From Methylobacter sp. (GTDB taxonomy: Bacteria; Pseudomonadota; Gammaproteobacteria; Methylococcales; Methylomonadaceae): DNA of 43,182 bases. Positions 7,474 through 31,836 of the stretch are shown one piece after another (the first letter of the stretch is position 1; each line of letters starts with the position of its first letter). Where the stretch lies: the NCBI GenBank assembly GCA_026399025.1, contig JAPLRU010000062.1:1-43182 (forward strand), read 5' to 3'. The notes beneath the pieces were generated by a model that worked only from the letters and a program-made list of their open reading frames with translations, searched no databases and was not told the origin of the DNA. The position numbers and the translations under genes were made by a program.

Positions 7474-7489
7474 TAAAGAGAGCCATAGA

Positions 7490-9182: not shown

Positions 9183-9347
9183 TATAGAATCCTCAGTTGA
9201 TAAAGCGACGCAAAGCCCTCTCCAGAGGGAGAGGGTTGGGTGAGGGGAAATTAAAATAAGGAAAAAGGCTTGTTTGATCCCCCTCATCCCAACCTTCTCC
9301 CTGAGGGAGAAGGGGTAAATGTCGCTTTACTAATTCTGGACTCTATA
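9183..9347. repeat. MITE-like element with G/C palindromic core
   Basis: A core of about 105 bases (9211-9316) has two G/C hairpins: CCCTCTCC/GGAGAGGG and CTTCTCCCTGAGGGAGAAG. The core is flanked by a 27-base imperfect inverted repeat (9183-9209 and 9321-9347; 21 of 27 match), whose inner nine bases TAAAGCGAC/GTCGCTTTA are perfect. The same core, inverted, lies inside topB at about 24.97-25.08 kb with different flanking inverted repeats. Confidence 0.78.
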
Positions 9348-9393
9348 TCATAGCGTCTAACGGTTGCGTGACGGCTATTGATGGATTGCACTT

Positions 9394-9624
9394 TTAACTT
9401 CCCTCATCAATCCATTCATAAATTTCCGTCAAAGCCGTATCGCATTGGCAACAGCTTGTCCCGCAAGAAGCGGTCAACGGCAATTTTCGCACTTTGCCTT
9501 TGCCGATCCATTTATCCAACATGCCGCGCAAGGCATCGGCATCCATATTGAAGTGAGTGCATAAATCAGCCAACGCAACCCGGCGCTGTTCTTTTAAATA
9601 AGTCCTCAGATCAGACAGGATCAC
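9394..9624 (-). CDS. feoC: FeoC-like protein of the ferrous iron transport operon
   Basis: A 76-residue winged-helix protein that accompanies FeoB. The N-terminal helix-turn-helix-like part (LRTYLKEQRRVALADLCTHF, MLDKWIGKGKVRKL) is followed by a Cys cluster C54-x3-C58-C59-x-C61, which in FeoC proteins can hold an iron-sulfur cluster. Its GTG start overlaps the end of feoB by 14 bases, so it is coupled to feoB. It is the last gene of feoABC. Confidence 0.86.
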   Translation of the reverse strand: MILSDLRTYLKEQRRVALADLCTHFNMDADALRGMLDKWIGKGKVRKLPLTASCGTSCCQCDTALTEIYEWIDEGS

Positions 9625-11959
9625 TTAAAGACTCCCGGTTGGGTTTTACGTCCGTGGTATCGTCATGTTTACCAAGCAACCACAAGCCTAGCAATACAGC
9701 CGAAAAGGCAATGATTAATCCGCTTATCCAGACCAGCGAATAGTCAGGATGCCGACTATAAGTCATCGTTTGATAAAAAATAGTTGCGGTCATATAAGCA
9801 ATGCCGGTCGTCCAAAACAACACGAATAACGTCCAGTTCATGTTGGTTTCCCGATAAATTGCAGCGGTTGCGGCGATGCAGGGGGCATACAATAAGATAA
9901 ACAACAAATAGGCGAAGGCTCCGGCTTTGCCGTCAAAACTTTGCTGCATAGCGGCAAAGGTGTCGGCATTGACTTCCTGCTCGTCGGCAGCCGCTGCTAT
10001 ATCGTTGACGGCGCCGATATTCAGGCCCAATGGGTCTAACAGGTTATCCGCAACGTCATGCAAATTTTTAGGCACGGTTAGGCAGGCATCGATTAAAGCC
10101 TGTTTAAGGTTAAACGGCGCTTTCTCAACGGCATTTGCATCAGCCGATGCCAGTTGGCTATATAAGGCGTCCAGCGTACCGACCACCGCTTCCTTGGCAA
10201 GAACGCCGGTAAAAATCCCTACCGTTGCCGGCCAGTTGTCTTTTTCTATCCCCATCGGTTTAAATGCCGGAGTCAGGCTGCGGCCGATCTCGCTTAACAC
10301 CGATTTATTGCTGTTTTCCCGGCCGAATGAGCCGTCTGTACCCAATGCATTAAGGAAGTTCAACACTAACACCATCGGTACGATGACTTTACCGGCATTG
10401 AACAAAAACGACTTGAGCCGGTCCCAGGTTCTGATAAATACGCCGCGCACGGTCGGCATGTGGTAGGCGGGCAGTTCCATAATAAAGGGGGCCGATTCAC
10501 CCTTAAACAGCGTGTGACGCATGATTAAACCGGTCAATACTGCAACGGCTATACCTAATAAATACAAGCCGAATACCAGATTCTGGCCGCCGACCGGAAA
10601 AAATGCGGCGGCAAATAAGGCATAAACCGGCAATCTGGCTCCGCAGGACATAAACGGGTTCATCAGGTTGGTCAATATCCGGTCGCGCTGGCTTTCCAAG
10701 GTTCGGGTCGCCATAATCGCCGGAACATTGCAACCGAAACCGACAATCATCGGCACGAAGGATTTACCGGGCAAACCGATCATGCGCATAAATCTATCCA
10801 TCACGAAAGCCGCTCTGGCCATGTAACCGGAATCTTCGAGCGCCGATAGAAACATGAATAAAAAGCCGACGATAGGAATAAAGGTGGCGACGACTTGAAT
10901 GCCGCTACCTACGCCATTAGTCATTAATACAATCAGCCATTGCGGCCAATTCATATCAGTCAGCGCCAAGCTTAAGCTGTCTATCAATAAAGCGCCCACG
11001 GCCTGATCGAAAAAGTCGACAAAAGCGCTGCCGATGTTGATGGTGAACATAAACATCGCATACATAACCAGCAGAAAAACCGGAATACCCAGAAAGCGGT
11101 TTAAAACAACGCTGTCGATTTTGTCGGTAATGTGGCGGCTCACTTCGTTCAATTTGCAAACCGCGCCACCGGCTAATTCATTAACAAAGCCATAGCGGGC
11201 ATCAGCCGCGAGAATATCTATTTCATCATCGGTTTGGTTTTCTACCCGGCGTTGCAATTCAGCCACTCTCGGCAATAAATCAGCTCCGGCAAACTGCTTA
11301 GCCAAGGTATCGTCTTCCAGCAAGCGAACGGCCAACCAACGCAGATTACAATGGTGCTGCTTGGCGCGCTCAAGCAATAACGGAGAAATGTCGTTAATCG
11401 CTTGCTCCAGCTCGGAAACATAGCCGATTTTCACCGAAGGTATCGGTTTGGCGCTAGCGGCGCTATTGATTGCCGCTTTTAATGAGCCGATGCCGCCTTT
11501 GACCGAGGCGGTAATCGGAATAACCGGGCAGCCCAAAAACCGCTCAAGGAAATCCACATCGATTTTAATGCCCCGTTGCTTCACCGCATCCATCATGTTC
11601 AGCACTAAGATCATCGGCACCCGCATCTCGATCAGTTGCGAGGTTAAATACAGGTTTCTTTCCAAATTGGAGGCATCGACGATATTAATAATTAGATCGG
11701 CCTCTTGGGAAGCAACATAATCGCGAGCCACTTTTTCATCCAAGGACACTTGGTCGTCGGCAGCCTCCAGGGAATAAGTACCGGGAAGATCGACCAGCTC
11801 GATAAGTTTATGATCGAAGCTGTATTCACCGGTTTTTTTCTCGACCGTAACGCCGGGCCAATTGCCGACATGCTGCCTGGCGCCGGTGAGCGCATTAAAT
11901 AGTGTAGTCTTGCCGCAATTGGGGTTGCCGACAACGCCAACCGTAAAATCAGTTTTCAT
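9611..11959 (-). CDS. feoB: Ferrous iron transporter FeoB
   Basis: Inner-membrane Fe(II) transporter of 782 residues. The N-terminal G domain has G1 GNPNCGKT (11-18), G3 DLPG (57-60), G4 NMMD (121-124) and a G5-like ASVKGG. A helical spacer follows, then about ten membrane segments with the two Gate motifs. Each Gate carries a conserved Cys in a cytoplasmic context such as GFGCNVPAIMATRTLE and YAPCIAATAAIYRE. The ATG overlaps the feoA stop by one base (TGATG), and the 3' end overlaps feoC. Expression should follow iron limitation through the Fur-like site upstream of feoA. Confidence 0.97.
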   Translation of the reverse strand: MKTDFTVGVVGNPNCGKTTLFNALTGARQHVGNWPGVTVEKKTGEYSFDHKLIELVDLPGTYSLEAADDQVSLDEKVARDYVASQEADLIINIVDASNLERNLYLTSQLIEMRVPMILVLNMMDAVKQRGIKIDVDFLERFLGCPVIPITASVKGGIGSLKAAINSAASAKPIPSVKIGYVSELEQAINDISPLLLERAKQHHCNLRWLAVRLLEDDTLAKQFAGADLLPRVAELQRRVENQTDDEIDILAADARYGFVNELAGGAVCKLNEVSRHITDKIDSVVLNRFLGIPVFLLVMYAMFMFTINIGSAFVDFFDQAVGALLIDSLSLALTDMNWPQWLIVLMTNGVGSGIQVVATFIPIVGFLFMFLSALEDSGYMARAAFVMDRFMRMIGLPGKSFVPMIVGFGCNVPAIMATRTLESQRDRILTNLMNPFMSCGARLPVYALFAAAFFPVGGQNLVFGLYLLGIAVAVLTGLIMRHTLFKGESAPFIMELPAYHMPTVRGVFIRTWDRLKSFLFNAGKVIVPMVLVLNFLNALGTDGSFGRENSNKSVLSEIGRSLTPAFKPMGIEKDNWPATVGIFTGVLAKEAVVGTLDALYSQLASADANAVEKAPFNLKQALIDACLTVPKNLHDVADNLLDPLGLNIGAVNDIAAAADEQEVNADTFAAMQQSFDGKAGAFAYLLFILLYAPCIAATAAIYRETNMNWTLFVLFWTTGIAYMTATIFYQTMTYSRHPDYSLVWISGLIIAFSAVLLGLWLLGKHDDTTDVKPNRESLSDPV

Positions 11960-12192
11960 CAGAGCTTCTCTATCAACAATATTGCCGCTTCATCCTTGCG
12001 CAAGGTTAATGAAAATCCGCGTAATTTAATCTCAACGGGATCGCCCATCGGAGCAAAACGGGTCACGCTAAACTCGGTTCCCGGCGTCAAGCCCATAGCC
12101 AGCAAACGTTTGCGATAAGCCTTGCCTGACTGTTCAAAGCCGACAACCTTTCCCGAATCGCCCACAGCTAAATTTTTTAAACTTATTGTCAT
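11959..12192 (-). CDS. feoA: Ferrous iron transport protein FeoA
   Basis: A 77-residue SH3-like cytoplasmic protein required for FeoB activity. It shows the family pattern: LKNLAVGDSGKVVGFE at the start, RKRLLAMGLTPGTEFSVTRFAPMGDPVEIKLRGFSLTLRKDEA in the body. It is the first gene of feoABC and shares one base with feoB. No strong Shine-Dalgarno is seen before its ATG. A Fur-box-like sequence lies 54 bases upstream. Confidence 0.95.
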   Translation of the reverse strand: MTISLKNLAVGDSGKVVGFEQSGKAYRKRLLAMGLTPGTEFSVTRFAPMGDPVEIKLRGFSLTLRKDEAAILLIEKL

Positions 12193-12244
12193 AAATTAAG
12201 CATTGAAATCATGTGCATTAAAAACTAACAGCCTCAGAGTTATC

Positions 12245-12264
12245 AACAATCATTCTCATTAAGA
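12245..12264 (-). promoter_or_regulatory. Putative Fur box upstream of feoABC
   Basis: Minus-strand CTTAATGAGAATGATTGTT resembles the 19-base Fur consensus GATAATGATAATCATTATC, with the AATGA-GAATGATT centre. Its position ahead of feoA is that expected for iron repression. Binding is inferred. Confidence 0.62.
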
Positions 12265-12733
12265 AGGACTATATCACAATAACCGCTGCGTTTTCCGAAT
12301 TTTTAAATCGATATGTTGCAGTTAGAAAAATGTGCAAGCTTAAGCCAATTGCACACGGGGCAAATTAGAAACTTTACGAGAAATTGGAGCGAGAGAAGAA
12401 GAAAACGGTAATTCATGCTTAACCGGTCAGTCGCAAGTTCTCCTCCTCTTGACAATTACTTGGCGGATTTGTCAAAAAATAAGAAAAGTCCATGCAAAAT
12501 CACATCGACCTCGCGTTGAATAATTTTCGAGGTATTTTTTCAAGACAGCATAGTTGGCTGTTGTTTAGCGCCATCGCGATAGGTTTTATGGCTGCACCTA
12601 TTTATGGCTGCACCTAAATGGTCGGTATTATTTCGTTGTGTCTTTTTTAGTTGTTAAATGAAGCGGATTATCATCGGTTGCTCCATTTTTTGTACTTATT
12701 CAGACCTGTAGGCAAATCTTACACTCCAACCCC

Positions 12734-12794
12734 AATAAGGATGACATAGCCCGTTAATGACGGGTAACCCATTTAAATTGAAAACGCTGTCACT
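12734..12794. repeat. Diverged direct repeat, copy 1
   Basis: About 61 bases beginning AATAAGGATGACATAGC and ending around TTAAATTGAAAACGCTGT. A related sequence is at 13054-13113. Both follow an ACTCC motif. Confidence 0.6.
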
Positions 12795-12983
12795 ATTTAA
12801 TAATAGGTTACCAAGATCAACAGTGTATTAACAAAAATGGGAATGTATATGAACTAACTGCCTATAAGCAATTTTATGTGACACCGAAAAATTGCATAAT
12901 TATTTTTATGCGGCGTTGACTAAACTTATTACAGCGTTTTCAAATTCAGTTAATTACAAAAATAATAAAGCCATGGTGTATTT

Positions 12984-13047
12984 GGAGTGCAAGCTTCGCC
13001 TAAAGCGCCTACGTTGGTGCTTTAGGCGCAGAAGAAGCCTGTACTCC
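12984..13047. repeat. Long imperfect hairpin
   Basis: The inner arms CGCCTAAAGC (12997-13006) and GCTTTAGGCG (13019-13028) are a perfect 10-base inverted repeat. The outer arms GGAGTGCAAGCTTC and GAAGCCTGTACTCC pair at 12 of 14 positions. It ends just before direct repeat copy 2. No T-run follows, so a mobile or REP-type repeat is more likely than a terminator. Confidence 0.6.
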
Positions 13048-13053
13048 GGCGCT

Positions 13054-13113
13054 AATAAAGATAACGTAGCTTGTTGATGGTTAGTAACTTATTTAAATTG
13101 AAAACATTGTACT
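13054..13113. repeat. Diverged direct repeat, copy 2
   Basis: Begins AATAAAGATAACGTAGC and shares ATTTAAATTGAAAAC with copy 1 at 12734-12794. The two copies are about 70% alike by eye and sit 320 bases apart, with the long hairpin next to this copy. Confidence 0.58.
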
Positions 13114-13400
13114 TATATTATGCACATCATCCTATAAGTTATTATTTAAATATTCAACGCACCGGCAATCTATAAAGTTGAATAACTCCGTATGTTACCG
13201 GCTATTAAGTCGCTCTTATCAAAAAAAACAAAAGACAACGGATTTGGTAATGGCTTAAATTATTTTTTGAAAAATATAGAGATTGAATATTTATAGTTAT
13301 TGTCTGCGCCGAACCAAAATATCCACAATATTATGAATTGTAGCTATTATCAAAGAGACGAGGATATAGAATAATTGAGTATATATCATAGTTAAATGCA

Positions 13401-13409
13401 TGATATAAT
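13401..13409 (+). promoter_or_regulatory. Extended -10 promoter of the H-NS-like gene
   Basis: TGATATAAT is a perfect extended -10 (TGnTATAAT), 33 bases before the start codon. There is no good -35 at 17 bases; an extended -10 can work without one. AAGGA precedes the ATG at 13442. Confidence 0.55.
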
Positions 13410-13441
13410 GAATATATGTTTTTTTATTTTAAGGACTCAAT

Positions 13442-13756
13442 ATGAACGAATACCAAGATCTTTCTGAAAATGAATTGCAAGCTGTTATTGAAAATGCAAA
13501 AAAGGCACTAAAAAATAAACTGGCTCACAAACATAAAGAAGTTATCGCTCAAATTAAAGAATTGGCTGCCTCTATTGGCGTTAATGTAGAAATTCAGGAG
13601 CCTGAGAAAATGTCCGCTCGCAAGGGTGGAAAAGTCGCCATTAAATATCGCCACCCTGATGACCCAAACAAAACATGGACAGGCCGTGGAGTTGCGCCAA
13701 AGTGGATGCAGGAATTGCAGAGTTCCGGACATGATCGTTCTGAATTTGAAATATAA
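13442..13756 (+). CDS. H-NS family nucleoid-associated protein
   Basis: A 104-residue H-NS-type protein expected to coat and silence AT-rich DNA. The N-terminal 50 residues form a charged coiled-coil oligomerisation region (ELQAVIENAKKALKNKLAHK). A linker (about 51-65) leads to the DNA-binding domain KYRHPDDPNKTWTGRGVAPKWM. The minor-groove loop, QGR in E. coli H-NS and GRGR in many relatives, is G81-R82-G83-V84 here: the last Arg is replaced by Val. That may weaken or retune binding. It has its own extended -10 promoter and lies within AT-rich noncoding DNA, so autorepression is plausible. Confidence 0.88.
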   Translation: MNEYQDLSENELQAVIENAKKALKNKLAHKHKEVIAQIKELAASIGVNVEIQEPEKMSARKGGKVAIKYRHPDDPNKTWTGRGVAPKWMQELQSSGHDRSEFEI

Positions 13757-13785
13757 ATTTTAAGTTATATTTCATTTTCCCTCCC

Positions 13786-13818
13786 GAGAAGCGTATGAGA
13801 CTTGCTCATGCGCTTCTC
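13786..13818. repeat. Hairpin downstream of the H-NS-like gene
   Basis: GAGAAGCGTATGAG and CTCATGCGCTTCTC pair with one mismatch around a short loop. It starts 29 bases after the stop codon but has no T-run, so it may protect the mRNA end rather than act as a classical terminator. Confidence 0.45.
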
Positions 13819-14316
13819 AGCCTGTACTTATTCAGCCCCCTTAGCCACGGGAAGTCTTTGTACAGGAAGTCCCGCCCGCCTTTGACCAATTACTGCGGCC
13901 AAAAAAATCCAAGGTGATTGTTGGCCTACGCGGCAAGTTTCAATAATACTCAAAGGATGACCAAGATTCTGGAGCCCTCTTCAGTTCGTGTACCCTGACA
14001 AATACATCTTAAAATCACCCAATGACGCAAAGCAGATTCGGCTTCATTGTTTACCAGCAGTAAATGTGGATGTGCCAACACTTGGAAAACGACCTCCCTG
14101 CGTATTCTGATTAATTTGAACAGTGATTCTGGCCGAACTTGAACACCTAAAACCTAATGCATCGGTGGAAGTGAATGGCTGTCCCTCAAAACATTTACAC
14201 AGGATGAACTTGAACAGGCCATCAATGAAATTGGCGCAGGGTTTGGCTCAAAATACACATTAACTTTTTGCTAGGCGCTTAATATCAGCTCGGCTTATAT
14301 TCGCAGGTCATTACAC
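13819..14316. other. Noncoding stretch with a possible gene remnant
   Basis: No intact gene is seen. A plus-strand frame at 14188-14274 reads KTFTQDELEQAINEIGAGFG and continues to a stop, with protein-like composition. It is preceded in another frame by LAELEHLKPNASVEVNG. This could be the frameshifted 3' end of a lost gene. I do not recognise the family, and the call is weak. Confidence 0.3.
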
Positions 14317-15366
14317 CTACATTGGCTGATCAAAAAATACTTGATTATAAATCGCCACAGGAATCCCATATTCAATGGCAAGTTCTTCAAAGCTTTTGTT
14401 TTGATTATGAACTGATTCAGCAATAACTTTAAATTCTGCGAGGATATTAGCTTGATTGAGAATGAAGCCGTAACTGGAATAATTGTTTGATTGCCCAGAA
14501 ATTTGTTCATACAAAGCTGTTTGTAAATAACTAGGTAAATCCCATGCTTGAACAATCTTCGCGGATAGTTCCGGCGAATGATCTCGCACGATATTTGAGA
14601 AGACAATACCACGAGGGGTGTAATCTATATATTCACCTAACGCTTTAATCAATAAGGCGAATATAGCTAACTTCCCCACATCGTGCATCAAGCCGACTAA
14701 ATAGGCATTATCAGGATCGCATAGCTGGTAAATTACTGCCAGTACGCGGCAGGCATGAGCGCAGTTGATAGAGTGCTCCCAAAGATGTTGACCGAACATT
14801 TTAAAATAAACCGGTGCAATAACTAACATACGCTTCATCAATGCGGAGCTTATTACCATTTTTAGATTTCCCAATCCTAATATCACTACGGCCTGCTCAA
14901 GATTGACGATCGTTTCGCAACCAGACGGTCTAAACATAGCACTGTTTGCCATATGTAAAACATCCGAAGCTAACGCCGGATCCCGATTAATATTAGACAT
15001 GATTTCAGCAATGGTAATATCTGGATCGCCTAACTGCTTCAGCAATTTTGCTCCGACATCAGGCAGCCTTGGCACAGCGAATTCTGGAATATCGCCAAGT
15101 AACAATTTCTCAAGATTATTGAGTATGGACTGCTCAACATTATTGAGTGAGATTATTTCTGGCGCACCGCTATCAAGCAATAAATCATTAAAACTCGCCG
15201 CAAGTGCCGAATAATCAGAGCTTAAAGGTAAGAGTTTTTCAATAGCCTTTGAATAAATTATTCCCCTAGCAACTTCATTTGATGAAGACTGAAACTTATT
15301 TTGTTTGGAGATGTTTTGAGCTTCCCTTTTATTCCAACGGAAGATCTGTTTAAAAAAACTAAGCAT
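14317..15366 (-). CDS. HDOD domain protein
   Basis: A 349-residue cytoplasmic protein with an HDOD domain, a catalytically degenerate relative of HD phosphohydrolases found in signalling proteins. The domain starts around residue 95 with VPRLPDVGAKLLKQLGDPD and continues through INRDPALASDVLHMANSAMF, VVILGLGNLKMVISSALM and GLMHDVGKLAIFALLI, where an HD pair is still seen. The N-terminal 90 residues are basic then helical and carry no domain I recognise. HDOD proteins often act in motility, cell-cycle or stress signalling. There is no partner gene next to it; the IS66 remnant begins 45 bases upstream of its start and may have cut it from its original promoter. Confidence 0.85.
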   Translation of the reverse strand: MLSFFKQIFRWNKREAQNISKQNKFQSSSNEVARGIIYSKAIEKLLPLSSDYSALAASFNDLLLDSGAPEIISLNNVEQSILNNLEKLLLGDIPEFAVPRLPDVGAKLLKQLGDPDITIAEIMSNINRDPALASDVLHMANSAMFRPSGCETIVNLEQAVVILGLGNLKMVISSALMKRMLVIAPVYFKMFGQHLWEHSINCAHACRVLAVIYQLCDPDNAYLVGLMHDVGKLAIFALLIKALGEYIDYTPRGIVFSNIVRDHSPELSAKIVQAWDLPSYLQTALYEQISGQSNNYSSYGFILNQANILAEFKVIAESVHNQNKSFEELAIEYGIPVAIYNQVFFDQPM

Positions 15367-15456
15367 TGTATTTCCAATATAGAAGTGATGACTACGAAAT
15401 CCGAATAATGGTAAGCGCTCAACCGTTCCACATCATCAGGCCGTCGCCGCTATGAT

Positions 15457-16906
15457 TTAATCGGCTGGGGCAAAAGGCAACAGTTCGTCGATGCGGCTAT
15501 TGGGCCAAGTGGGGAGTTTTTCCAGGGTGTCTTTTAGCCAGGCCGAGAGATCTAGGCCATTGAGTTTAGCGGTGCTAAGCAAGGCCTGAATAACCGCCGC
15601 TCTTTGTCCGGCGCGTTCCGAGCCGGTGAATAACTCGTTCTTTTTGCCCAGCGCGATAGGGCGAATGCAGTTTTCCGCCGGGTTGTTGTCAATGGGTAAA
15701 TCGCCGGTTTCGGCGTAACGGGTCAGCGCAACCCAGCATTTCAAGCTGTAATCGATGGCTTTGCTGGTGGCGGTATTGGGTGCGGCGCAGTGGCGGGTTT
15801 ATTGCAACCAGTCGTGTAAGGCCGCCAGCGTGGGCAGGCTTTTTTCAGTGCGCAGCTGTTTTCGCTCGGCCGTGCTTAAATCACGGGCTTCGGCTTCAAC
15901 TGCATACAAGATAGCGATACGGTTTAGGGCTTCTTGCGCTATAGGACTCTGGCCGGCTTGATAGTCGAAGACGATAATCTTGAGGCCCGGTTGCAAATCA
16001 TTACTGCGATAGGCCCACAGATAGGCTTTCTTGGTTTTACCCTTGCCGGGATCGAGTTGCGGCACGGGCTTCTCATCGGCGTGCAAGCTATCTCTCTGCA
16101 ATAAATGCCAAGCCAATCGATCGACTAAGGGCGCTAAAGCGATACCGAGTCGCCCCACCCAATCCGCCAGAGTGGAGCGTGACAAGATCACCCCATCGCG
16201 AGCGGCGATTTGTTCCATTGTTCCAGCCGGTACAGCGGTAGATGATCCAGGTATTTGTTGATGATCACCCAGGTCAATAAACCGACGGCAGCCAAACCTC
16301 CATCAATCACGGCGGGAGGAATCGGCGCAGCGGTGACGATTTCGCAGGCACGGCAGGCGTATTGTGGACTAATATAGCGATAGACGAAAACTGGGCGGGT
16401 TCGACATCCAATTGCTCGGTCACGTCTCCAGCAACCGCTCCTGCGTTGCTCTACCTCCTGCATCCCTAAAGTTGTCGCCGATTTTGACCAAATCTTTGCC
16501 GCAGTGTCCGCAGGCACAGGATTCCGGTTCGTGGCGGTGCTCGATACGCGGCAGATGATCGCCGACCGGCGCGAGGACGTTTGGGCTTAGCAACGGTTTC
16601 ACAAGGTCTATCGTCTTGTAGTTGCTCAACTTCGGCTTCGGCTTCAATGGCCGAAATGTCGGTGTTCCAGGTTTCCTCGAACACATCGCGTTGCAGCGGC
16701 GCCAGGGCTTCACTCTTGGTGCTGAAACGGATGCGCTTGTAGTAGCCAGCTCGTGCGTGAGTGAGTGCGGCGATTTTGAGGTCTTTGGCCTGGATGGTTT
16801 TTGCATCCCGTTCCGCCTGTTCGAGCAGCGCTTGAATCAGCACAGCCACCTCGGTTTTAGCGGTCGGTTCCAGATTGAGTTGATCAAGTTCGGCGAGTGG
16901 ATTCAT
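15457..16906 (-). pseudogene. tnpC: IS66 transposase tnpC, disrupted
   Basis: Four fragments together cover the IS66 DDE transposase. The N-terminus is MNPLAELDQLNLEPTAKTEV with a helical region (16466-16906). A zinc-finger and mid part with CRACEI and LLTWVIINKYLDHLPLYRLE follows (16188-16517). The catalytic core is MEQIAARDGVILSRSTLADW to AALHDWLQ (15799-16218). The C-terminus contains DNNPAENCIRPIALGKKN (15457-15744). Frames change near 16500 and near 16200, and an in-frame TAA at 15799 splits the core from the C-terminus. An active enzyme is very unlikely. Confidence 0.9.
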
Positions 16907-16991
16907 AGCTATTATTATACCGCAATTACCCGCTGAAAGCCTTGTATTTACTGGTTTTTATCGGTTTTTTATCGCCTGTTTTGCGCGTGCT

Positions 16992-17343: not shown

Positions 17344-17627
17344 CGCAGCAACTCCGCTACCCACCTAGCCGACACCGAAGATGGAAGCTCCAACTAATGA
17401 CCGTGACTATGGATAAAGATGATGGCCGCTGTCGCAGGCGTTGCCTCCGAGGCGGACCCGGTTGGCTCAACCTGCATCGGTATAAAAGCAAGCGATCAGC
17501 CTCAGGCAGTCTGCGATAGTCGCTCAGTCGCGCTGTGAAAGTACGCGCATTGATTTGCTGTTGCTTGCGATAAACCGCTACGTTGCCACGCTTCAATATG
17601 CTGACGCCATTTCGATGTGATGGCCAT
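17331..17627 (-). pseudogene. tnpA: IS66 accessory gene tnpA, disrupted
   Basis: Starts MAITSKWRQHIEAWQRSGLSQ at 17627. It shifts frame near 17560 (INARTFTARLSDYR) and ends LELPSSVSARWVAELLRCLA. The C-terminal LELPxSVSxRWVAELLR block is characteristic of IS66 Orf1. A TAG just before LELPSS interrupts the third segment. Confidence 0.8.
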
Positions 17628-23663: not shown

Positions 23664-23744
23664 TAAAGGAAGGCGCATGAAATAACTTGAGCATTTGATT
23701 CTCCTCGGCAATGCAAGAGCAATTGCCGATAGGGAGCTTTTTTT
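23664..23744 (+). repeat. Half copy of the CATGAAATAACTT repeat joined to a hairpin with T-run
   Basis: AAGGAAGGCGCATGAAATAACTT, followed by GAGCATTTGATTCTCCTC, matches the inverted right half of the element at 31736-31836. It runs directly into TCGGCAAT/ATTGCCGA (23705-23729), then AGGGAGC and seven T. The latter has the form of a plus-strand terminator, but no plus-strand gene precedes it. Confidence 0.6.
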
Positions 23745-23813
23745 CTTAACCTAATGGCAGTGATATGGAGCGTGGAAACAATACCGTTTGCTGTATTTTT
23801 TCTTGTGACTCCT

Positions 23814-26372
23814 CTAACGCCCAACAAAATCCATTTCGACTTTCCCCTCGACCAATCTCAGATTAGCTTCAAACTCAGTGCCTTTAGCGGACTTAAAGCC
23901 TTTTAACAACCCCGTCTCACCTTCATTCAGTAATTTTTTAGCCATTGCCGCAGTGATTTTTTTATGCGCAACCGTTTTCCAGATCGTCATTTTGCAACCA
24001 TTGCGCCACTCGCTACAGCTGTAAGCTTTTGGGGTTTCGATGATTTTACCGTTGCATAACGGACAATCGGCAAGACCTTCTTTTACGGCGGACCGTTGTC
24101 CCGACTCGGCTTTGATGTAACCGGTTTCCCCCTGCTTGTTAAGCGTCAGCTGAGCATTAAATATTTCATCGTTTAGCTTGATGGCATAACAGTGCAAAGT
24201 CCGGTTAGTTTGCAATAGCTGACAAGCCATGTCCGAAGTGACAGGCAAGCCATAGACTTGCTTCCATAATACAAATTGGCAACCGGCTTTCCAATCACTG
24301 CAACCGTAGCCTTTACGACCTTCGATAACAGGATGTCCGCACAACGGGCAGTCGCCCAAACGGCTTTGATCGTAAAGCGGCCGATCCGATTGGTCTTTTA
24401 TTTTCTGGGTAAAGCGGATGATTTCGTCCATGAATCGATCGGGATCGTAATCGTTGTGTTCTATTTTTTTGAGCTTGGCTTCCCATTCGCCGGTCATCGC
24501 CGCTGACTTTAACCGGTCGTCGGCGATAATGGAAATCAGATGCCGCCCCGATTCAGTGCTGAGTAAAGTCTTTTTTTGTCGTTGGATGTAGTTGCGCTTG
24601 ATTAACACCTCAATAATCGAAGCTCGGGTGGCCGGCGTGCCCAGTCCTTTTTCTTTTAACGCTTCTTTAAGCTGTTCATCGTCGCACGTTTTACCGGCCG
24701 ATTCCATGATGCTCAGTAAGCTCGCTTCGTTATAAGGCTTCGGCGGCGTGGTTTTGCCCTGAGTTATCGAGAGCTGCTGCGGCCCGGTTTCGCCTTGGAC
24801 AAAATTAGGCAGGATTTTCACCGTTTTATCGGGCTGATAGGTCGCTTCGTTTTTATACAAGACCTGCCAGCCGGGCGATTCGATAATCGTGCCGGTGGTT
24901 TTGAATTTTACGGTGGAGGATTCACCTTTTATCTTCCCCTCACCCAGCAATACTGTTGACTTAAGAACATAAGCCCCTTCTCCCTCAGGGAGAAGGCTGG
25001 GATGAGGGGATTTAAATAAGCTTTTTTCCTTATTTTGATTTCCCCTCACCCAACCCTCTCCCTTTGGAGAGGGCTCTTCGTTGCTTAAGTCAACAGTATT
25101 GCCCTCACCCCGTCCCTCTCCCTGAGGGAGAGGGAGAGGGAGAGGGGGATGAATACTGCCCAGAACGGTGGTGATTTGTTTGATGCAAGGCGGATAAAAC
25201 GCCGCAATAAAGCGTTGCACAATCGCTTCGTAAACTTTGGTTTCATGGCCCGACAGCGACCCCGCCAAGAGTGTCGTGGGAATAATGGCGTGATGATCGC
25301 TCACTTTGGCATCATTAAAGATACGGCTGCTCAGCGCCAGCTTATCCAGATCGAGCGGCTCTATTTGCGGGCCAAAATGTGTACGTAATTTCGTCAACAA
25401 AGGTTTCATGCCCGATTTCATGTCGCCGCTTAAACAACGGCTGTCGGTACGCGGGTAAGTGATGTGTTTTTTCTCGTATAACTGCTGAGCGGAGGTTAAG
25501 GTTTGATCCGCCGTCAGGCCATAGCGCACACTCATGTCTTTTTGCAAATCGGTCAAATCGTACAATAACGGCGGACTGATCGATTCCCGCTTGCCCTTAA
25601 CTTCGGTAATCTTAAAATCCTGTCCCGAAATTTGACTTAGCAAGGCTTCCGCATCGGCCTTATGATCGAAGCGACCGCCGATATAGTGAAAATCGGTGTC
25701 CCGGTACAGGGCATGCAATTCCCAAAAATCCTTGGCCACGAAGCGGCTAATCTCAGAATCTTTTTGCACAATCAGCGCCAACACCGGGGTTTGCACCCGG
25801 CCTATCGTCCACAAGCCGCCCTGCCCGCCGAATTTGAGGGTATAAAGCCGCGTGGCATTCAAGCCGACAATCCAGTCCGATTCGCTACGGCATTTGGCGG
25901 CCCGATACAGTCCATCGTAAACATGGCCGTCCTTTAAGCTGTCAAAGCCTTTGCGTATCGCATCGTCGGTTAAGGAACTGATCCACAAACGTTTGAACGG
26001 TTTTTGCAGACATCCGGCCCAGGTCAGAATGTACCTGAAGATCAACTCCCCTTCCCTTCCCGCGTCGGTCGCACAGATAATTTCATCGGCGGCATTGAAC
26101 AATTGCTTGATGGTGTTCAGCTGTTTCTGGGCGGAAGCATCGCCTCTGGCTTTTAAACCGAATTGCTCGGGAATGATGGGCAGGGCTTCTAAAGACCAGC
26201 GCTTCCAGGCGGGATTATATTCATCCGGCTCTTTCAGTTCGACCAAATGCCCGAACGCCCAAGTGATTTGATAGCCGTTACCTTCAAAATAACCGTCGCG
26301 TTTGTTGTTTATGCTCAGGCACTTGGCTATATCGCGGGCAACGGAAGGTTTTTCGGTCAGGATGACTTTCAT
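23814..26372 (-). CDS. topB: DNA topoisomerase III with an in-frame repeat insertion
   Basis: Type IA topoisomerase that passes single strands to decatenate DNA. 852 residues, longer than the roughly 650 of E. coli TopB. The Toprim domain begins MKVILTEKPSVARDIAKCLS, with TDAGREGELIFR at 102-113. The active-site Tyr is Y306 in HITYPRTDS. Residues about 408-485 are an insertion (HPPLPLPLPQGEG and on to LLGEGKIKGES) encoded by a palindromic repeat; on each side the TopB sequence resumes (ITTVLGSI, then VKFKTTGTIIESPGW). Two C-terminal zinc-ribbon-like modules (CPLCGHPV to CSDWKAGC; CPLCNGKI to CSEWRNGC) follow. All other catalytic parts look intact, so it may still be functional. Confidence 0.93.
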   Translation of the reverse strand: MKVILTEKPSVARDIAKCLSINNKRDGYFEGNGYQITWAFGHLVELKEPDEYNPAWKRWSLEALPIIPEQFGLKARGDASAQKQLNTIKQLFNAADEIICATDAGREGELIFRYILTWAGCLQKPFKRLWISSLTDDAIRKGFDSLKDGHVYDGLYRAAKCRSESDWIVGLNATRLYTLKFGGQGGLWTIGRVQTPVLALIVQKDSEISRFVAKDFWELHALYRDTDFHYIGGRFDHKADAEALLSQISGQDFKITEVKGKRESISPPLLYDLTDLQKDMSVRYGLTADQTLTSAQQLYEKKHITYPRTDSRCLSGDMKSGMKPLLTKLRTHFGPQIEPLDLDKLALSSRIFNDAKVSDHHAIIPTTLLAGSLSGHETKVYEAIVQRFIAAFYPPCIKQITTVLGSIHPPLPLPLPQGEGRGEGNTVDLSNEEPSPKGEGWVRGNQNKEKSLFKSPHPSLLPEGEGAYVLKSTVLLGEGKIKGESSTVKFKTTGTIIESPGWQVLYKNEATYQPDKTVKILPNFVQGETGPQQLSITQGKTTPPKPYNEASLLSIMESAGKTCDDEQLKEALKEKGLGTPATRASIIEVLIKRNYIQRQKKTLLSTESGRHLISIIADDRLKSAAMTGEWEAKLKKIEHNDYDPDRFMDEIIRFTQKIKDQSDRPLYDQSRLGDCPLCGHPVIEGRKGYGCSDWKAGCQFVLWKQVYGLPVTSDMACQLLQTNRTLHCYAIKLNDEIFNAQLTLNKQGETGYIKAESGQRSAVKEGLADCPLCNGKIIETPKAYSCSEWRNGCKMTIWKTVAHKKITAAMAKKLLNEGETGLLKGFKSAKGTEFEANLRLVEGKVEMDFVGR
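24918..25151. repeat. Palindromic repeat inserted in frame within topB
   Basis: About 234 bases, encoding 78 extra residues. A perfect 19-base inverted repeat, GCAATACTGTTGACTTAAG at 24947-24965 and its complement at 25084-25102, frames a core of 118 bases. That core is the same sequence, inverted, as the one at 9211-9316. Outside the frame lie further CCCTCTCCCTGAGGGAGAGGG-type hairpins (25111-25147). The core and its hairpins are read as Gly-Glu-Gly-rich linker. Confidence 0.85.
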
Positions 26373-26500
26373 GGTTGAATCTTTTCAGCAGTGCTGCCGT
26401 TAAGGTTATAGGATGGGTGCGAAGCATACCTTTAAGATGGGCTTCATTATCTGTACAGTATTCACAACCAATGGAACGCAGTGGCGCGGATAGTTATGAT

Positions 26501-26552
26501 GAACGCGGATTCTATTATGATTTATCCGTGCCAATCATAATCATCTGCGTTC
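26501..26552. repeat. Palindromic repeat between ppnN and topB
   Basis: Arms of about 20 bases (GAACGC-GAT...ATTATGATT) pair imperfectly around TATCCGTGCC. Related wording (CCGCGTCATCCGTGTTCC) recurs at 38727-38757. It is a dispersed REP-type repeat. Confidence 0.55.
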
Positions 26553-26579
26553 TATTTTTCTCACTGCTAAATCGTTCCC

Positions 26580-27950
26580 TTACTTGATAATCTTGTAACA
26601 CGGTATGTATTTTTTCCCCGGTAATTTCATGCGCTGCTGCACCACAAATGAGGTCAGCAGCGAATCCATCAACGCCATAATAGCCTCATCGCCGTGAATT
26701 TCGAAATGACCGTATTGCTCGATAGCGCGGATACCTTCGTCTTTGACGTTACCCGCGACAATGCCCGAAAACGCGCGCCGCAGATTGGCGGCGAGCCGGT
26801 GATTTTCCTGGTCTTTATGCAGCGCCAGATTTCTCATGTTGTCATGGGTCGGGATAAACGGCTGCTGGAACACATGGTCAATCTTAAGCAACCAGTTGAA
26901 ATAATAAGCATCCCCGGTTTCTTTACGGAACTGGCGGACTTGCTGAATGCCGGCCTGCATTTCTCGAGCAACCTGCACAGGATTGTCAATAATGATTTTA
27001 TAACGCTGCTGCGCCGCTTTGCCCAAAGTACCGGCAATAAACCGGTCGATTTCCTTGAAGTAGTCCTCCGAGCTGTCTGGACCCGAAAATATCAGCGGAA
27101 ACGGCATATCTCTATTATCGGGATGCAGCAATACGCCTAATATATAAAGTATCTCTTCCGCGGTACCCGCACCGCCGGGAAACACGACGATACCGTGACC
27201 GGTACGCACAAAGGCCTCCAGACGTTTTTCAATATCCGGCAGAATCACCAAATCATTAACAATCGGATTCGGCGACTCGGCGGCAATAATGCCGGGCTCG
27301 CTTATCCCTAGATACTGGCCGTTTTTTATCCGTTGCTTGGCATGGCCGATGGTCGCGCCTTTCATCGGGCCTTTCATCGCGCCCGGCCCGCAGCCGGTGC
27401 AAATATTCAAACCGCGCAGGCCCATTTCGTGACCGACCTGTTTAGTGTAATCATATTCAGTGCGGCTGATGGAATGTCCGCCCCAGCACACCACCAAGTT
27501 CGGCGAAATCATCGGCCGCAAGATATTGGCATTACGCAAAATATGAAATACCGCGTTACTGATGCCGTCCGAGCTATTCAAATCGAACATCGGATTATTA
27601 TTGATCTCGTCACTGACATAGATAATATCGCGCAACACCGCAAACAAATGCTCGTTGATGCCTTTGATCATTTTCCCGTCAACGAAGGCATGGGCGGGCG
27701 CCGCTTTAACATCCAGTTTAATGCCGCGCTGCTCCTGAACCACGCGTATTTCAAAATCGGCATAGCGTTCCAGCAACTCCTTGCCGTCATCCATGCTGCT
27801 GCCGGAATTCAATACCGCGAGCGAGCAATTGCGAAACAGCCGATACAAACCGCCCTGACTGGTATCGAGCAATTTAACGACCTCGGCTTTGGACAGCACG
27901 TCCAGACGGCCTTCGGGAGTAATGCGGGCATCGACGACTTGGTGTTTCAT
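26580..27950 (-). CDS. ppnN: Nucleotide 5'-monophosphate nucleosidase PpnN
   Basis: Cytoplasmic enzyme of the YgdH/PpnN family that cleaves purine and pyrimidine 5'-nucleotides to base plus ribose-5-phosphate; in E. coli it is tuned by (p)ppGpp. It has 456 residues, the family's length. An N-terminal regulatory domain precedes the LOG-like Rossmann core, with CWGGHSISRTEYDY (155-168), CTGCGPGAMKGPMKGA (184-199) and the signature PGGAGTAEE (258-266). The C-terminal domain ends KKYIPCYKIIK. The ATG follows AAGGA. It is separated from topB by a repeat, and the two need not be co-transcribed. Confidence 0.95.
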   Translation of the reverse strand: MKHQVVDARITPEGRLDVLSKAEVVKLLDTSQGGLYRLFRNCSLAVLNSGSSMDDGKELLERYADFEIRVVQEQRGIKLDVKAAPAHAFVDGKMIKGINEHLFAVLRDIIYVSDEINNNPMFDLNSSDGISNAVFHILRNANILRPMISPNLVVCWGGHSISRTEYDYTKQVGHEMGLRGLNICTGCGPGAMKGPMKGATIGHAKQRIKNGQYLGISEPGIIAAESPNPIVNDLVILPDIEKRLEAFVRTGHGIVVFPGGAGTAEEILYILGVLLHPDNRDMPFPLIFSGPDSSEDYFKEIDRFIAGTLGKAAQQRYKIIIDNPVQVAREMQAGIQQVRQFRKETGDAYYFNWLLKIDHVFQQPFIPTHDNMRNLALHKDQENHRLAANLRRAFSGIVAGNVKDEGIRAIEQYGHFEIHGDEAIMALMDSLLTSFVVQQRMKLPGKKYIPCYKIIK

Positions 27951-28110
27951 ACTATTCCTTTAAGTTAGAAGCTATTATATTGATTTAAAAAGCCTGACTA
28001 TCAATGCAACGACCGGCTTTACGGGTTAATCGCAACATTTCGATTCATTCGGCATTCAGCGACCGGTAGCTATTCTTTGAAACATGGATTAACTACTAAG
28101 GGCCGCGACA

Positions 28111-28479
28111 ATGAATTCTATCGTTCGAAAAATACCGCTTATCGGTTTTACGCTACTGCTCGGCGCTTGTGCTAATTATCCAGCGCATTATTCCTATTAT
28201 CCTCGGTATGAAACCTACAGTAGAGGCTATATCGTGACCGACAGAAGCTATTATTACGGCGGAAGGCCGGATTATTACCGTAATAGCTACAGTTATGGTA
28301 ACGCCTATTTTCCACATCATCACTATCATGATCAATATAATGCCCCGCCGCACCGGAACCATGAACATTCGGAGCATCAACATGACGAAGGCCATGATCA
28401 CGCCTTTAACCACGGACGCAGCCGCCAACACGACGATAACAATCATCACAATAGTTTTGCCGGCAGAAACCGCCATTAA
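28111..28479 (+). CDS. Small Tyr/His-rich lipoprotein
   Basis: 122 residues. The N-terminus is a lipoprotein signal, with IPLIGFTLLLGAC ending at the Cys of the lipobox near residue 20, so it should be an outer-membrane or periplasm-facing lipoprotein. The mature part is Tyr-rich (residues 25-66, many YY and SYY pairs). It then becomes His-rich, with clusters such as PHHHYHD and HEHSEHQHDEGHDHAF. The His/Asp/Glu clusters suggest metal binding, but there is no recognised domain and no neighbour that points to a metal. It stands alone on the plus strand. Confidence 0.75.
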   Translation: MNSIVRKIPLIGFTLLLGACANYPAHYSYYPRYETYSRGYIVTDRSYYYGGRPDYYRNSYSYGNAYFPHHHYHDQYNAPPHRNHEHSEHQHDEGHDHAFNHGRSRQHDDNNHHNSFAGRNRH

Positions 28480-28722
28480 CCATTGGCAAATCCGATAAAC
28501 GCAAACCCTTTATCCTCCGTCGACCAAATTTTCAATGGCTATACCGGGGATTAGCCTCTATAATGCGACGCCTAGTAGACAGCATTGCGCACAGACGTAA
28601 TATGCCCGCTTAAGTTTTGCATGTTATTCAGCACTTTTCAGAAATTCCATTCGCTTTTCTCCTTAAAATTGCCCAGCATGATTTGCAATCAAACATTTTC
28701 ATTGATTTATATAGGTAATTTT

Positions 28723-28929
28723 ATGGCAACAGGTACTGTTAAGTGGTTTAACGAAGCTAAAGGTTTTGGTTTTATTTCTCCTAGCGATGGCAGCGCAGAT
28801 GTGTTTGTACACTTTTCTGCAATCGCAAGCGACGGCGGTTTTCGCACCTTGGCTGAAGGCCAAGCTGTTAAGTACGATGTAGAATCAGGCCCTAAAGGCC
28901 CGCAGGCATCACAAGTAAGCGCCGCTTAA
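28723..28929 (+). CDS. Cold-shock protein (CspA family)
   Basis: A 68-residue single cold-shock domain that binds single-stranded RNA and DNA and acts as an RNA chaperone. RNP1 (KGFGFI) and RNP2 (VFVHF) are present in the normal order: [20 protein letters not shown], then [10 protein letters not shown] longer upstream frame is open to 28585, but the ATG at 28723 gives the exact family N-terminus and follows TAGGT. The upstream frame may reflect a long leader, as in cold-induced csp mRNAs. An RRM protein follows 109 bases later. Confidence 0.95.
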
Positions 28930-28952
28930 ACCCGCCTTACTTCCAACAGCAC

Positions 28953-28980
28953 AACCCCGTCTTCGATAATACGCGGGGTT
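28953..28980. repeat. Hairpin after the cold-shock gene
   Basis: AACCCCG and CGGGGTT pair around TCTTCGATAATACG. No T-run follows on the plus strand. It may stabilise the csp mRNA end or act as a weak terminator. Confidence 0.45.
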
Positions 28981-29038
28981 GTGGCATAACCGGTTCATCC
29001 GGCCCATCAACTTCCCCCCATTATTTAGGACATGTCTT

Positions 29039-29305
29039 TTGAAACGAATTTTTGTAGGCAACTTACCTAGCGAAGCCACTGAAGAAACTGTACAGGCTTT
29101 ATTTTCCGAATACGGCAAAGTCCGTTCCATCCAATTGGTTTCCGATATTTTTAGCGGAAAATGCCGGGGCTTCGGCTTTATCGGAATGGAAGGTCACGAA
29201 GCAAGAGCCGCAATAGCCGCATTAGACGGCAATCTCTATTGCGGAAAACCTCTAAAAGTTAAATTTGAAGATACGACTGCCGGTAAAGGCGGCAGACGCA
29301 ATTGA
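29039..29305 (+). CDS. RNA-binding protein with a single RRM domain
   Basis: 89 residues. RNP2 (RIFVGNL) opens the protein and RNP1 (CRGFGFIGM) follows about 35 residues later, a complete RNA-recognition motif with a short basic tail GKGGRRN. I choose the TTG at 29039, which has AGGA eight bases upstream and gives the usual RRM start KRIFVGNLP. The in-frame ATG at 28979 would begin within the csp hairpin and add an unrelated extension, and an ATG at 29032 is out of frame. It lies downstream of a cold-shock gene, suggesting a shared role in RNA handling at low temperature. Confidence 0.88.
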   Translation: MKRIFVGNLPSEATEETVQALFSEYGKVRSIQLVSDIFSGKCRGFGFIGMEGHEARAAIAALDGNLYCGKPLKVKFEDTTAGKGGRRN

Positions 29306-29797
29306 AATCTTAACAGCGCAATCCCCACGCCCCTCTTTCTCTAAACGACCTGAGTCACAAACCAATATCGTGTAGCAAACTGAGTGTTTGCGTCATTCCA
29401 TCTCGGAAGCGGACCGTTCAGTCTTATCAAAGACACTCTAAAGGTCTAAAAGTTGTGGGGATTGTTAGTTTTTCGATTTTCCAAACGAAACGACAGCTAT
29501 CGACGGTTCTATCACCGTCGATAGGCGCTAAACTTATTCTCTCTTTGCGCTACATACCGCGCAGCACGCTGCTTACTTCCAGCATCCGTAAAATCGTCCG
29601 GTCAGTTACACCGCCTTCATAACCTTATGCCCCCCTTTCTAACCTTTATAAATAACACCGGCAGAGTTACGCCGCGAAAATCTATAACGAATAAAGAGGC
29701 CAAGCTAAGCCCGGGCCTGACACGGCAGAGCAACAGGGCGAAATAAATTCTATGATAAAATAAATATTGTTTATCAAAAACACATCCCCCTGACTTA
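29306..29797. other. Noncoding stretch upstream of the LtaS-like gene
   Basis: No gene is seen. It holds a perfect 11-base inverted repeat, CTATCGACGGT/ACCGTCGATAG with a six-base loop (29497-29524), an isolated hairpin of unknown role. The next gene's promoter must lie in the AT-rich part after 29740, but no clear -35/-10 is found. Confidence 0.4.
29497..29524. repeat. Perfect 11-base inverted repeat
   Basis: CTATCGACGGT and ACCGTCGATAG around TCTATC. There is no T-run. It could be a regulatory hairpin or a REP-type element. Confidence 0.5.
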
Positions 29798-31708
29798 ATG
29801 CTATTAAAGCTCTTACCGCTGCTGTCTACGACGCTGTTTTACGCGCTGTATTACCTTATCAGCACCTTTAAATTCGATGTACAAATATTAACCGCGTCAA
29901 TACCTTACGATTACCTGCTGCAACTGGGGGTCGCTTACGTGCTTTATGCCTTATCGAAGCGGGTGTGGATTTTCCTGGTGATTCACGGCCTGCTTATGGG
30001 GCTGCTGTATGTCGGCAACGCGGTAAAAATATCGTTTTTTGGCGGGCCGATTATGCCGGACGATGTTTTTGCACTGCAATCGCTGCTTTTAATACTCGAC
30101 GGTTGGCGGTTTTTTGCCGCCGCCATCCCGCTGGCCGCCATCGCCAGCCTGTTGCTGTTCAATTTCAGTATGCGCCATTGGAGCGCTTATCTGGCCAGTC
30201 TGGCTATTATCTTGCTTGGCATCACCGTGGTTTATAAACCGGCTACCTTGCTGGAGCCTTTGGATGGTTATTTCGGCAACTCGGTCTGGGATCAGCGGTC
30301 CAATTACGTGTGGCGCGGCGCAACCTTGTACACCTTACTGGAAAGCGCGCGTCATTTTGCCGCAATCGAAGTGATTCCCGATGCCGACACAGCCCAAAAC
30401 GCCGCCGATAAATTATTGACCGCCGCTCGCATTAACGCCCTACCGGCCGCGCCAATCCCAACCGCTCTACCGGTCGGCAACGCCGCTTCGCTAACGGTTG
30501 CAACATTTCCACCCGTCCCGCCCAAGCCGTTTACGCCACGTAATATCCATATCGTGCTGTTGGAGTCTTTTTGGGATCCCGATCCCCTCAAGAAAGCAAA
30601 ATTTAAACCTTACCCGCTTTCGCCGGAATTTCGCGAACTATGGAAGAGCGGCGATTACTCGCATGCCCTGTCTCCGGTATTCGGCGGCTTTACCGCCAAT
30701 TCCGAATTTGAGGTCTTATGCGGCTTTCCTACCGTCAAGGACGCAGTCAAATTCGAACGTCAACTGCTGAACGATGTGCCTTGCTTGCCGCATATTCTGG
30801 CCGAAAAAGGCTATCGCACCATCGCCTCGCATCCGAATGTGCCGGTATTCTGGAACCGTGTTAACGCTTATAAACGCATGGGTTTTCAAACCTACTGGTC
30901 GTTGCAGGATTTTGTCCAGGATGACATGAACCGGGAATTCATGTCCGACAGCAGCCTATACCGCCAAGTGCTGGACAAAATATCCGGCTCGATAGAAGCC
31001 AAACAACCGATGCTGGATTACATCGTGACTTATTTCGGACACTGGAATTACCCCTTAAGCGAAAGCCGACCCGACAAAATCAGCTCGCCGTCCAAAATCG
31101 AGGAAGTCTCGGCTTACGCCAACACCGTTTATTACAAGTCGCGGGAATTGATGGCGTTTATCAACGAAATGCGTAAGCGGGACCCGGACGGCATTATCAT
31201 GGTTTTCGGCGATCACCTGCCTTTTCTCGGCGAGAATTTCGCAGGCTATGTCGAATCGGGCGTGTTGACGGCCAATCGCAGCGATTTTACGCCGACTATG
31301 TTCAAAACCTACGTCAGTACGCCGATGCTGATTATCGACGGTAAACGCGGCGCGCTTAAAGTCGGCAGCCTGCCGCTTTACCAAGTCCCCAAGCTATTGC
31401 TCGACCTGCTCAATTTCAATGAACCGAGCATCATGGATTACACAGCGCCCTTGCCTAATCCGCGGGTGCGACCATTGCCCGGCCTGCACTTTAATATTAT
31501 GGCCGACGGAACCGTGGAACTGTGCAAAGAGCCGCCTTATTCGGAGGCTTGCCAGCTGTCCGCGCGCTGGCTGGAGAATATCTCGGTGGTCAGCAATGAT
31601 TTATTCATGGGCCGTCAGTTTACACGACCTAAATACACCCCTGAGAAACCGCCGGAGCTTGTATCGTCGGCGGCAGTTATTCCGCAAGCAATTGCCGGAG
31701 CGAAATAG
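29798..31708 (+). CDS. LtaS/OpgB-like membrane phosphoglycerol transferase (sulfatase fold)
   Basis: 636 residues. About five membrane helices occupy the first 150 residues, and a periplasmic alkaline-phosphatase/sulfatase-fold domain follows from about 245. Predicted metal and catalytic residues are E256 (LLESFWD), the nucleophile T299 in GGFTANSEFEVLCG, and the distal VFGDHLPFLG. In LtaS and OpgB such enzymes move sn-glycerol-1-phosphate from phosphatidylglycerol to a polymer or glucan. The gammaproteobacterial context favours modification of periplasmic glucans or other envelope sugars over lipoteichoic acid. The substrate is not readable from sequence. It starts ATG at 29798. Confidence 0.85.
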   Translation: MLLKLLPLLSTTLFYALYYLISTFKFDVQILTASIPYDYLLQLGVAYVLYALSKRVWIFLVIHGLLMGLLYVGNAVKISFFGGPIMPDDVFALQSLLLILDGWRFFAAAIPLAAIASLLLFNFSMRHWSAYLASLAIILLGITVVYKPATLLEPLDGYFGNSVWDQRSNYVWRGATLYTLLESARHFAAIEVIPDADTAQNAADKLLTAARINALPAAPIPTALPVGNAASLTVATFPPVPPKPFTPRNIHIVLLESFWDPDPLKKAKFKPYPLSPEFRELWKSGDYSHALSPVFGGFTANSEFEVLCGFPTVKDAVKFERQLLNDVPCLPHILAEKGYRTIASHPNVPVFWNRVNAYKRMGFQTYWSLQDFVQDDMNREFMSDSSLYRQVLDKISGSIEAKQPMLDYIVTYFGHWNYPLSESRPDKISSPSKIEEVSAYANTVYYKSRELMAFINEMRKRDPDGIIMVFGDHLPFLGENFAGYVESGVLTANRSDFTPTMFKTYVSTPMLIIDGKRGALKVGSLPLYQVPKLLLDLLNFNEPSIMDYTAPLPNPRVRPLPGLHFNIMADGTVELCKEPPYSEACQLSARWLENISVVSNDLFMGRQFTRPKYTPEKPPELVSSAAVIPQAIAGAK

Positions 31709-31735
31709 AGCGGTCTTGATGACTGATGTTACCTA

Positions 31736-31836
31736 AGGAACGCGCATGAAATAACTTCGGCAACTGGCTCCCTCTCCTGCTGGAGAGGGTTGGGGTGAGG
31801 AGAATCAAATGCTCAAGTTATTTCATGCATGTTCCT
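31736..31836. repeat. Inverted-repeat element with G/C palindromic core
   Basis: Terminal arms AGGAACGCGCATGAAATAACTT (31736-31757) and its complement (31815-31836) match at 20 of 22. Inside is CCCTCTCC-TGCT-GGAGAGGG followed by TTGGGGTGAGGAGAAT, the same half core found at 9.2 and 25.0 kb. A half copy of this element's arm is at 23664. Confidence 0.78.

Follow-up and report, generated by a model that had tools for sequence, protein, structure and literature searches.

Catalogues of repeats usually keep MITEs, REPs and IS elements apart, and the origin of MITE interiors is an old open question. To our knowledge, MITE families have one interior each. The accessible parts of the literature already describe MITEs, REP/BIME sequences, IS elements with REPs as their targets, and a REP-containing MITE (QMITE2, PMC10969869); the last belongs to Coxiella and is reported to carry a GTAG palindrome that is recognised by IS1111 (PMC10969869). 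The window examined here, the whole 43,182-nt stretch of Methylobacter sp. DNA that was analysed (contig JAPLRU010000062.1, assembly GCA_026399025.1), carries a palindromic repeat, the core, set between pairs of inverted ends (frames) that belong genome-wide to five families, A to E. As far as the available portions of the papers permit comparison, the framed copies resemble IS-derived MITEs (PMC10969869) in being short, in lacking a transposase gene, and in having terminal inverted repeats and family-specific duplications; they differ in that one interior recurs across five families of ends and a single family of ends encloses many interiors. REP/BIME sequences and their RAYTs (PMC3733652) are similar in part: the core is an inverted pair of hairpins, is dispersed, and elsewhere is mostly unframed, but it lacks the GTAG/CGTC tag, had no RAYT beside it that we could find, and in its own genome is mostly framed and accompanied by duplications. 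QMITE2 joins one MITE family to one palindrome, whereas the relation here is many-to-many. Like the IS elements that target REPs (PMC1525189), E-framed elements can occupy the tip of a core hairpin, but most E elements (9/11) hold the same palindrome themselves. The palindromic elements of Rickettsia (PMC10969869, PMC3733652) share with this locus the in-frame insertion of a palindrome into a protein gene, here topB; the topB insert differs in that a framed copy lies inside a naked one, and the two are likened by description, not by sequence. In the literature searched, which covered few subscription journals and some papers in part, we found neither a report of one interior common to unrelated bacterial MITE ends nor one of a many-to-many relation of ends and palindromes.

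Each of the five frames has its own inverted ends and its own target duplication; the palindromic repeat is therefore probably a cargo, captured several times by different IS ends and copied by the transposase of each. The frames would be mobilised in trans by IS transposases, of the IS4 type for B, and a palindrome could come to be captured between two ends either when, still naked, it enters a short element or when gap repair switches templates. A broader proposition is that IS ends and REP-type palindromes form a modular, many-to-many system across phyla, such that any abundant palindrome can be captured as a new mobile element; on this we are almost evenly divided, leaning slightly against. 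If true, such a system would be a general birth route of bacterial MITEs and would explain their palindromic interiors. Because one palindrome is present in five frames, and relatives still display a single site as empty, naked or framed, the sequence of events can be put to the test. A further implication is that repeat finders that cluster by interior alone or by ends alone would merge or split families wrongly.

The core and its copies

The core consists of a CCCTCTCC/GGAGAGGG hairpin, followed by TTGGGGTGAGG, an AT-rich spacer, and a second hairpin in inverted orientation; its copies are dispersed hairpins in inverted pairs. In the copies inspected by eye, the foot of the hairpin read GCTCCCTCTCC or AAAGCCCTCTCC, with neither a GTAG nor a CGTC tag there. 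Self-pairing z values, relative to dinucleotide shuffles, were -6.4 for the A element of the window, -6.8 for the interior of the B element, and -5.3 for the C element. A scan of the window against Rfam gave no matches at the gathering threshold.

A preliminary description of this DNA had reported the same core at three places, and all three were confirmed; its three frames (A, B and C here) were also real, but it had missed an E-framed copy and a C/D chimera. None of these framed elements is assigned a strand. The A-framed element occupies 161 bp (9185-9345), where 9211-9316 had been proposed, with ends at 9185-9210 and 9322-9345, TA at 9183-9184 and 9346-9347, and core hairpins at 9216-9235 and 9293-9313. 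It lies just upstream of an adjoining gene (8547-9146), near TATGATA, a possible promoter box; this gene has 11 matches in its own genome and many in congeners. The B-framed element is 154 bp long (24948-25101), with IS4-type ends at 24948-24965 and 25084-25101, core hairpins at 24976-24996 and 25054-25073, and an 11-bp target duplication with one mismatch (CCCTCACCCAG/CCCTCACCCCG, 24937-24947 and 25102-25112). The inverted repeat seen earlier at this site, given as a perfect 19 bases, is real, but each end measures 18 bp, and the nineteenth pair lies in the target duplication. The element interrupts a naked half core within topB, on the minus strand with approximate edges at 24930-25135. The C-framed element is 99 bp long (31737-31835, corrected from 31736-31836) and contains only the first half of the core, its hairpin at 31770-31789; its ends (31737-31757 and 31815-31835) differ by two mismatches, and TAA is found at 31734-31736 and 31836-31838. 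The E-framed element (35075-35243) encloses a degraded core (approximately 35129-35168) and is flanked by a perfect 9-bp target duplication, CGTCTTAGC, at 35066-35074 and 35244-35252. The chimera (23668-23762) has a C-type left end and a D-type right end, joined via core remnants; the core has been mostly replaced by a piece of a GTAG-bearing insert of about 45 nt, and no target duplication was seen at this site.

In the genome as a whole (5.23 Mb in 138 contigs, with many core copies at contig ends), the core pattern matched 167 sites and a reversed control pattern matched none. Loci for retrieval were chosen from among the 100 best of the 167 matches; the other 67 carry two or three mismatches. 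This count bears on a first alternative, that these are unrelated ordinary MITEs whose G/C-rich interiors came to resemble each other by chance or through convergent selection for hairpins. The interiors of short elements are indeed often palindromic, but the reversed control found nothing, and the cores of A and B elements match over about 98 bp, AT spacer included, with a mean identity of 87% and values up to 98%; we consider coincidence of this kind hardly credible.

The loci retrieved first contained 133 distinct core arms, of which 110 were bordered on their outer side by a recognised end; the 23 that had none were mainly truncated, degenerate, or hairpins with an insert. For arms with full context in the own genome, the same frame was present on both sides in 91/110, while 17/110 were one-sided or mixed and 2/110 had none; in other genomes, 0/78 core arms had any of frames A-E. 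Most loci of the own genome were retrieved by queries containing ends, and for this reason the count was repeated on loci retrieved by the core-only pattern: 15/22 arms had the same frame on both sides, 7/22 were one-sided or mixed, and 0/22 had none. In another count, the frame was the same on both sides for 123 arms, 51 arms were one-sided, three had none, and 10 were mixed, these last being mainly nested or adjoining elements. A frame-blind test for inverted flanks, based on mononucleotide shuffles that keep single-base content only, was positive at p<=0.05 for 42/67 sites in the own genome vs 8/74 in other genomes, and at p<=0.005 for 37/67 vs 2/74, so that the flanks in the own genome are distinguishable from random sequence.

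Some core hairpins themselves contain inserts. A repeat of about 45 nt (CGACTGCATGGATGCAGGAGGTAGAGCAATGCAGGAGCAATTGCC and variants) was observed in L019, L021, L024, L028, L029, L054, L055, L066 and L067; by eye it is REP-like, with a GTAG-footed hairpin, and it apparently enters at GA, with GA repeated. Its count in A elements is inflated by the sub-terminal sequence of A itself. A second hairpin insert (CAAATCCGCCGGGAGCGGATTTGC...) occupies the other core hairpin in L022, L098, L109, L212, L213 and L231, and a similar piece lies inside a different palindrome in L310.

Five end families and their contents

The earlier suggestion of non-autonomous elements that keep their core while their ends differ was borne out and can be extended from three to five end types in the one genome: A is TAGAGTCCGCAGCTAATAAAGCGACA-like, B is CAATACTGTTGACTTAAG, C is GGAACGCGCATGAAATAACTT, D is CACTGCCATTAAGTTAAG, and E is CATAASTATCTACACAA. 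Each left a characteristic footprint; a duplication of at least 8 bp was allowed one mismatch. All 27 complete A elements had TA on both sides. A duplication of 10-11 bp accompanied 9 of the 13 complete B elements and was missing from 4/13. Frame C was the most numerous, with 44 complete elements, 36 of them flanked by a 3-bp duplication (20 TAA, 16 TTA). For the 28 complete D elements the duplication was 10-12 bp, present in 17/28 and missing in 10/28, including all three D elements that enclose core 4 (the numbered cores other than core 1, the core described above, are different palindromes). The 11 complete E elements had a 9-bp duplication in five cases (two with one mismatch) and none in 6/11. 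Inverted ends with a constant target duplication, a property of MITEs, were found for A, C, D and E, incompletely so for C, D and E. In the total of 123 complete elements, L263 is entered under B and again under D, and L003 contributes an E element that lies inside its B element. Depending on the pattern used, the numbers of core-bearing elements in A/B/C/D/E were 25/7/30/21/10 or 25/10/29/22/9. Judged by footprints alone, A may be IS630-like and C may be IS5-like. B and D ends both terminate in TTAAG and leave footprints that are alike, and the two frames may be distantly related.

The preliminary description had also offered the idea that the core inserts into palindromic targets, which was not supported. 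We observed the reverse: in L003, the tip of a core hairpin within a B element is occupied by an E-framed element, with a 9-bp duplication, CCCTCAGGG. One side of the same arrangement is present in L070, L125 and L081, and L064 has the E duplication CCCTCAGGG again, outside any recognisable core. The pairing of E ends with the core also extends to other genomes, as seen in L305 and L318 (isolate STB_183, Methylococcaceae), where E-like ends surround a C-rich relative of the core (CCCTCCCCCTGGCAGGGGGAGGGTTAGGGTGGGGG), and in L391, where E ends surround the core.

Frames without core 1 mostly enclose other palindromes or their remnants. In the own genome, a second palindrome (core 2) was present in 9/44 C elements and cores 3 or 4 in 4/28 D elements; frame A contained core 2 once, and L263, the element with core 5, fits the ends of both B and D. 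Two C elements, L270 and L279, contain neither the core nor another palindrome and are ambiguous; L279 was considered as an empty C frame and set aside, as its interior could have arisen by deletion and retain a piece of the insert of about 45 nt. As a birth mechanism we also considered a fold-back duplication of one end around a palindrome, which was rejected in that it does not predict the unlike sub-terminal sequences on the two sides of C and D.

A survey of frame B in other genomes, based on a scan with at least 115 loci and with one end matched exactly, gave at least 63 complete elements, at least 35 of them with an 8-14 bp duplication, and their interiors fell into at least 23 single-linkage clusters, most of them palindromic. 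Fold z was below -2 for 48/60 of the interiors listed vs 8/60 random segments (shuffles of single-base content; three of the at least 63 elements lacked the length for folding). One interior repeat, in isolate Dive96_bin3.184, occurred six times framed and 12 times naked in 81 kb, one of the naked stretches being a merged stretch that also holds a B end. The spacers between end and repeat in this isolate were mostly 6-8 bases, with 21-33 in others; L369 and L384 were treated as loci of this isolate, and the count was also repeated without them. Corresponding counts were six framed and none naked for Desulfonema magnum and eight framed and one naked for isolate STB_183. Cargo and frame are independent of each other.

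These interiors bear on a second alternative, in which each frame made one old capture, the cores were kept alike by gene conversion, and no capture continues. The junctions between frame and core 1 that were inspected are alike within a frame, and a tree of cores fits this account in part: all D cores group together in a single clade (support 100/100), while A and B cores are interleaved, as expected from conversion, the B core of the window grouping with an A core (93/91). The tree was based on 98 columns with one starred inner branch and on standard-length elements only, sampling 12/25 A, 3/7 B and 10/21 D core-bearing elements. The mixed A and B cores could be explained by gene conversion without any exchange of frames. 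Against single captures stand the other palindromes within the same frames here and the many interior clusters of B elsewhere, and we regard this account as somewhat unlikely. Such varied contents call for many captures in all, although those of core 1 need not be recent. Under repeated capture, core sequence would later be shared between frames via recombination. Further chimeras were found in L053 (E/C) and L133 (E/D), with no duplication seen; we infer that the chimeras point to recombination within the core.

Filled, empty and nested sites

A comparison of filled with empty sites, as proposed at the outset, was informative at two places in the window. The A element was inserted at GATA|TGCTTG, and an empty site was present at 6/11 of the relative loci inspected, from five genomes: four read GCTATGATATG and two had diverged to GCTATGATGTTC. 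At the other five loci, the upstream sequence was unlike that of the window. The window also contains a 33-nt repeat in four copies (TCAAGGGGYCAGAGTYATTGAAATTTTTAAAGA-like, 5452-8470) and a stretch of 39-bp period (6321-6710) with eight overlapping register copies inside small reading frames.

The second place is the conserved gene topB (reading frame 23814-26372), which framed palindromes enter in frame and which among named matches is closest to Methylobacter proteins. Both the naked half core and the B element are in frame: element plus duplication make up 165 bases, or 55 codons without a stop, and the reading frame therefore stays open. The B element inserted into a naked half core of topB, with its 11-bp duplication. 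Homologues such as P0008 have a corresponding naked half core (peptide LPLPQGEGRGEG), as judged from proteins only. Within the genus, the linker that holds these insertions could be read in 19 genomes, counting the own one, and was sorted by eye: it was empty (21-36 bases) in 11/19, held a small core-like hairpin in 2/19 and other palindromes in 5/19, and in the own genome had the framed copy inside the naked one. Inserts were always multiples of three bases, and the linker is a hot spot for palindrome insertion. In the congeners L477, L484, L488, L492 and L493, two other kinds of palindrome were observed in it, always in frame.

Movers of the frames and of the naked palindrome

Even unframed, the naked palindrome would be able to spread. 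The core pattern was found in 55/299 genomes of the phylum (own included) and 31/154 genera, with no match to the reversed control among the matches listed. Copies read in other genomes mostly had no inverted flanks; they comprised 30 loci, one per genome (L431, from the own genome, was left out), and 40 places chosen by hand, so that the unframed share describes a hand-picked subset. A Y1-type enzyme may move the naked copies.

Such an enzyme is central to a third alternative: the core itself is the mobile unit, and a Y1- or RAYT-like enzyme puts the naked palindrome into short elements, with a preference for palindromic ends, the frames being its targets. Unframed palindromes do vary between close relatives, as the empty topB linkers and the three kinds of palindrome in the others illustrate; the core is widespread in the phylum; and the own genome has four matches to Y1 transposases (PF01797), one of them below the cut-off and one broken. 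None of the four has a core within the 0.2-1.5 kb examined on each side, the search brought up no clear example of a frame lacking the core that might have served as a target, and the duplications belong to the frames. For the last two reasons, we prefer cargo capture to a core-centred hairpin transposase, which we judge unlikely. The alternatives are not mutually exclusive: insertion of a naked palindrome would be one route of capture, and single captures would be a slower version of the same process.

IS200/IS605 elements are not known to have terminal inverted repeats or to produce a target duplication. The preliminary description had named IS200/IS605 or RAYT transposases as possible movers, and for the framed copies this did not hold. 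These have inverted ends and duplications of 2-12 bp, which does not fit an IS200/IS605 derivative, and the ends of frame B are those of IS4-type elements elsewhere; a RAYT was rejected in that no core lies beside the Y1 genes examined.

The ends of frame B have owners elsewhere. The 18-bp B ends were found on three full-length elements, L317, L374 and L375, all in other genomes, whose transposases exceed the cut-off of NCBIfam NF033592 (IS4). Perfect 11-bp duplications flank L374 and L375, matching in length those of the short B elements; no target duplication was seen at L317. Frame B and the autonomous IS4-type elements thus share both terminal inverted repeats and duplication length. In the own genome, searches with PF01609 and PF01797 revealed no autonomous partner for B or the other frames, and, because the assembly is fragmented, a copy of the B partner may have been collapsed. 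The same two profiles yielded no autonomous IS for A, C, D or E in the retrieved loci; by eye, the reading frames pointing inward from unpaired ends look like ordinary genes. PF01609 had two matches in the own genome, neither enclosed by a pair of A-E ends. One broken PF01609 transposase (L286) has a single D-like end, with three mismatches, about 440 bp upstream, and may possibly be a decayed relative of D or a chance neighbour; a GTAGGAGCGGGC-type palindrome was also observed about 440 bp upstream of it.
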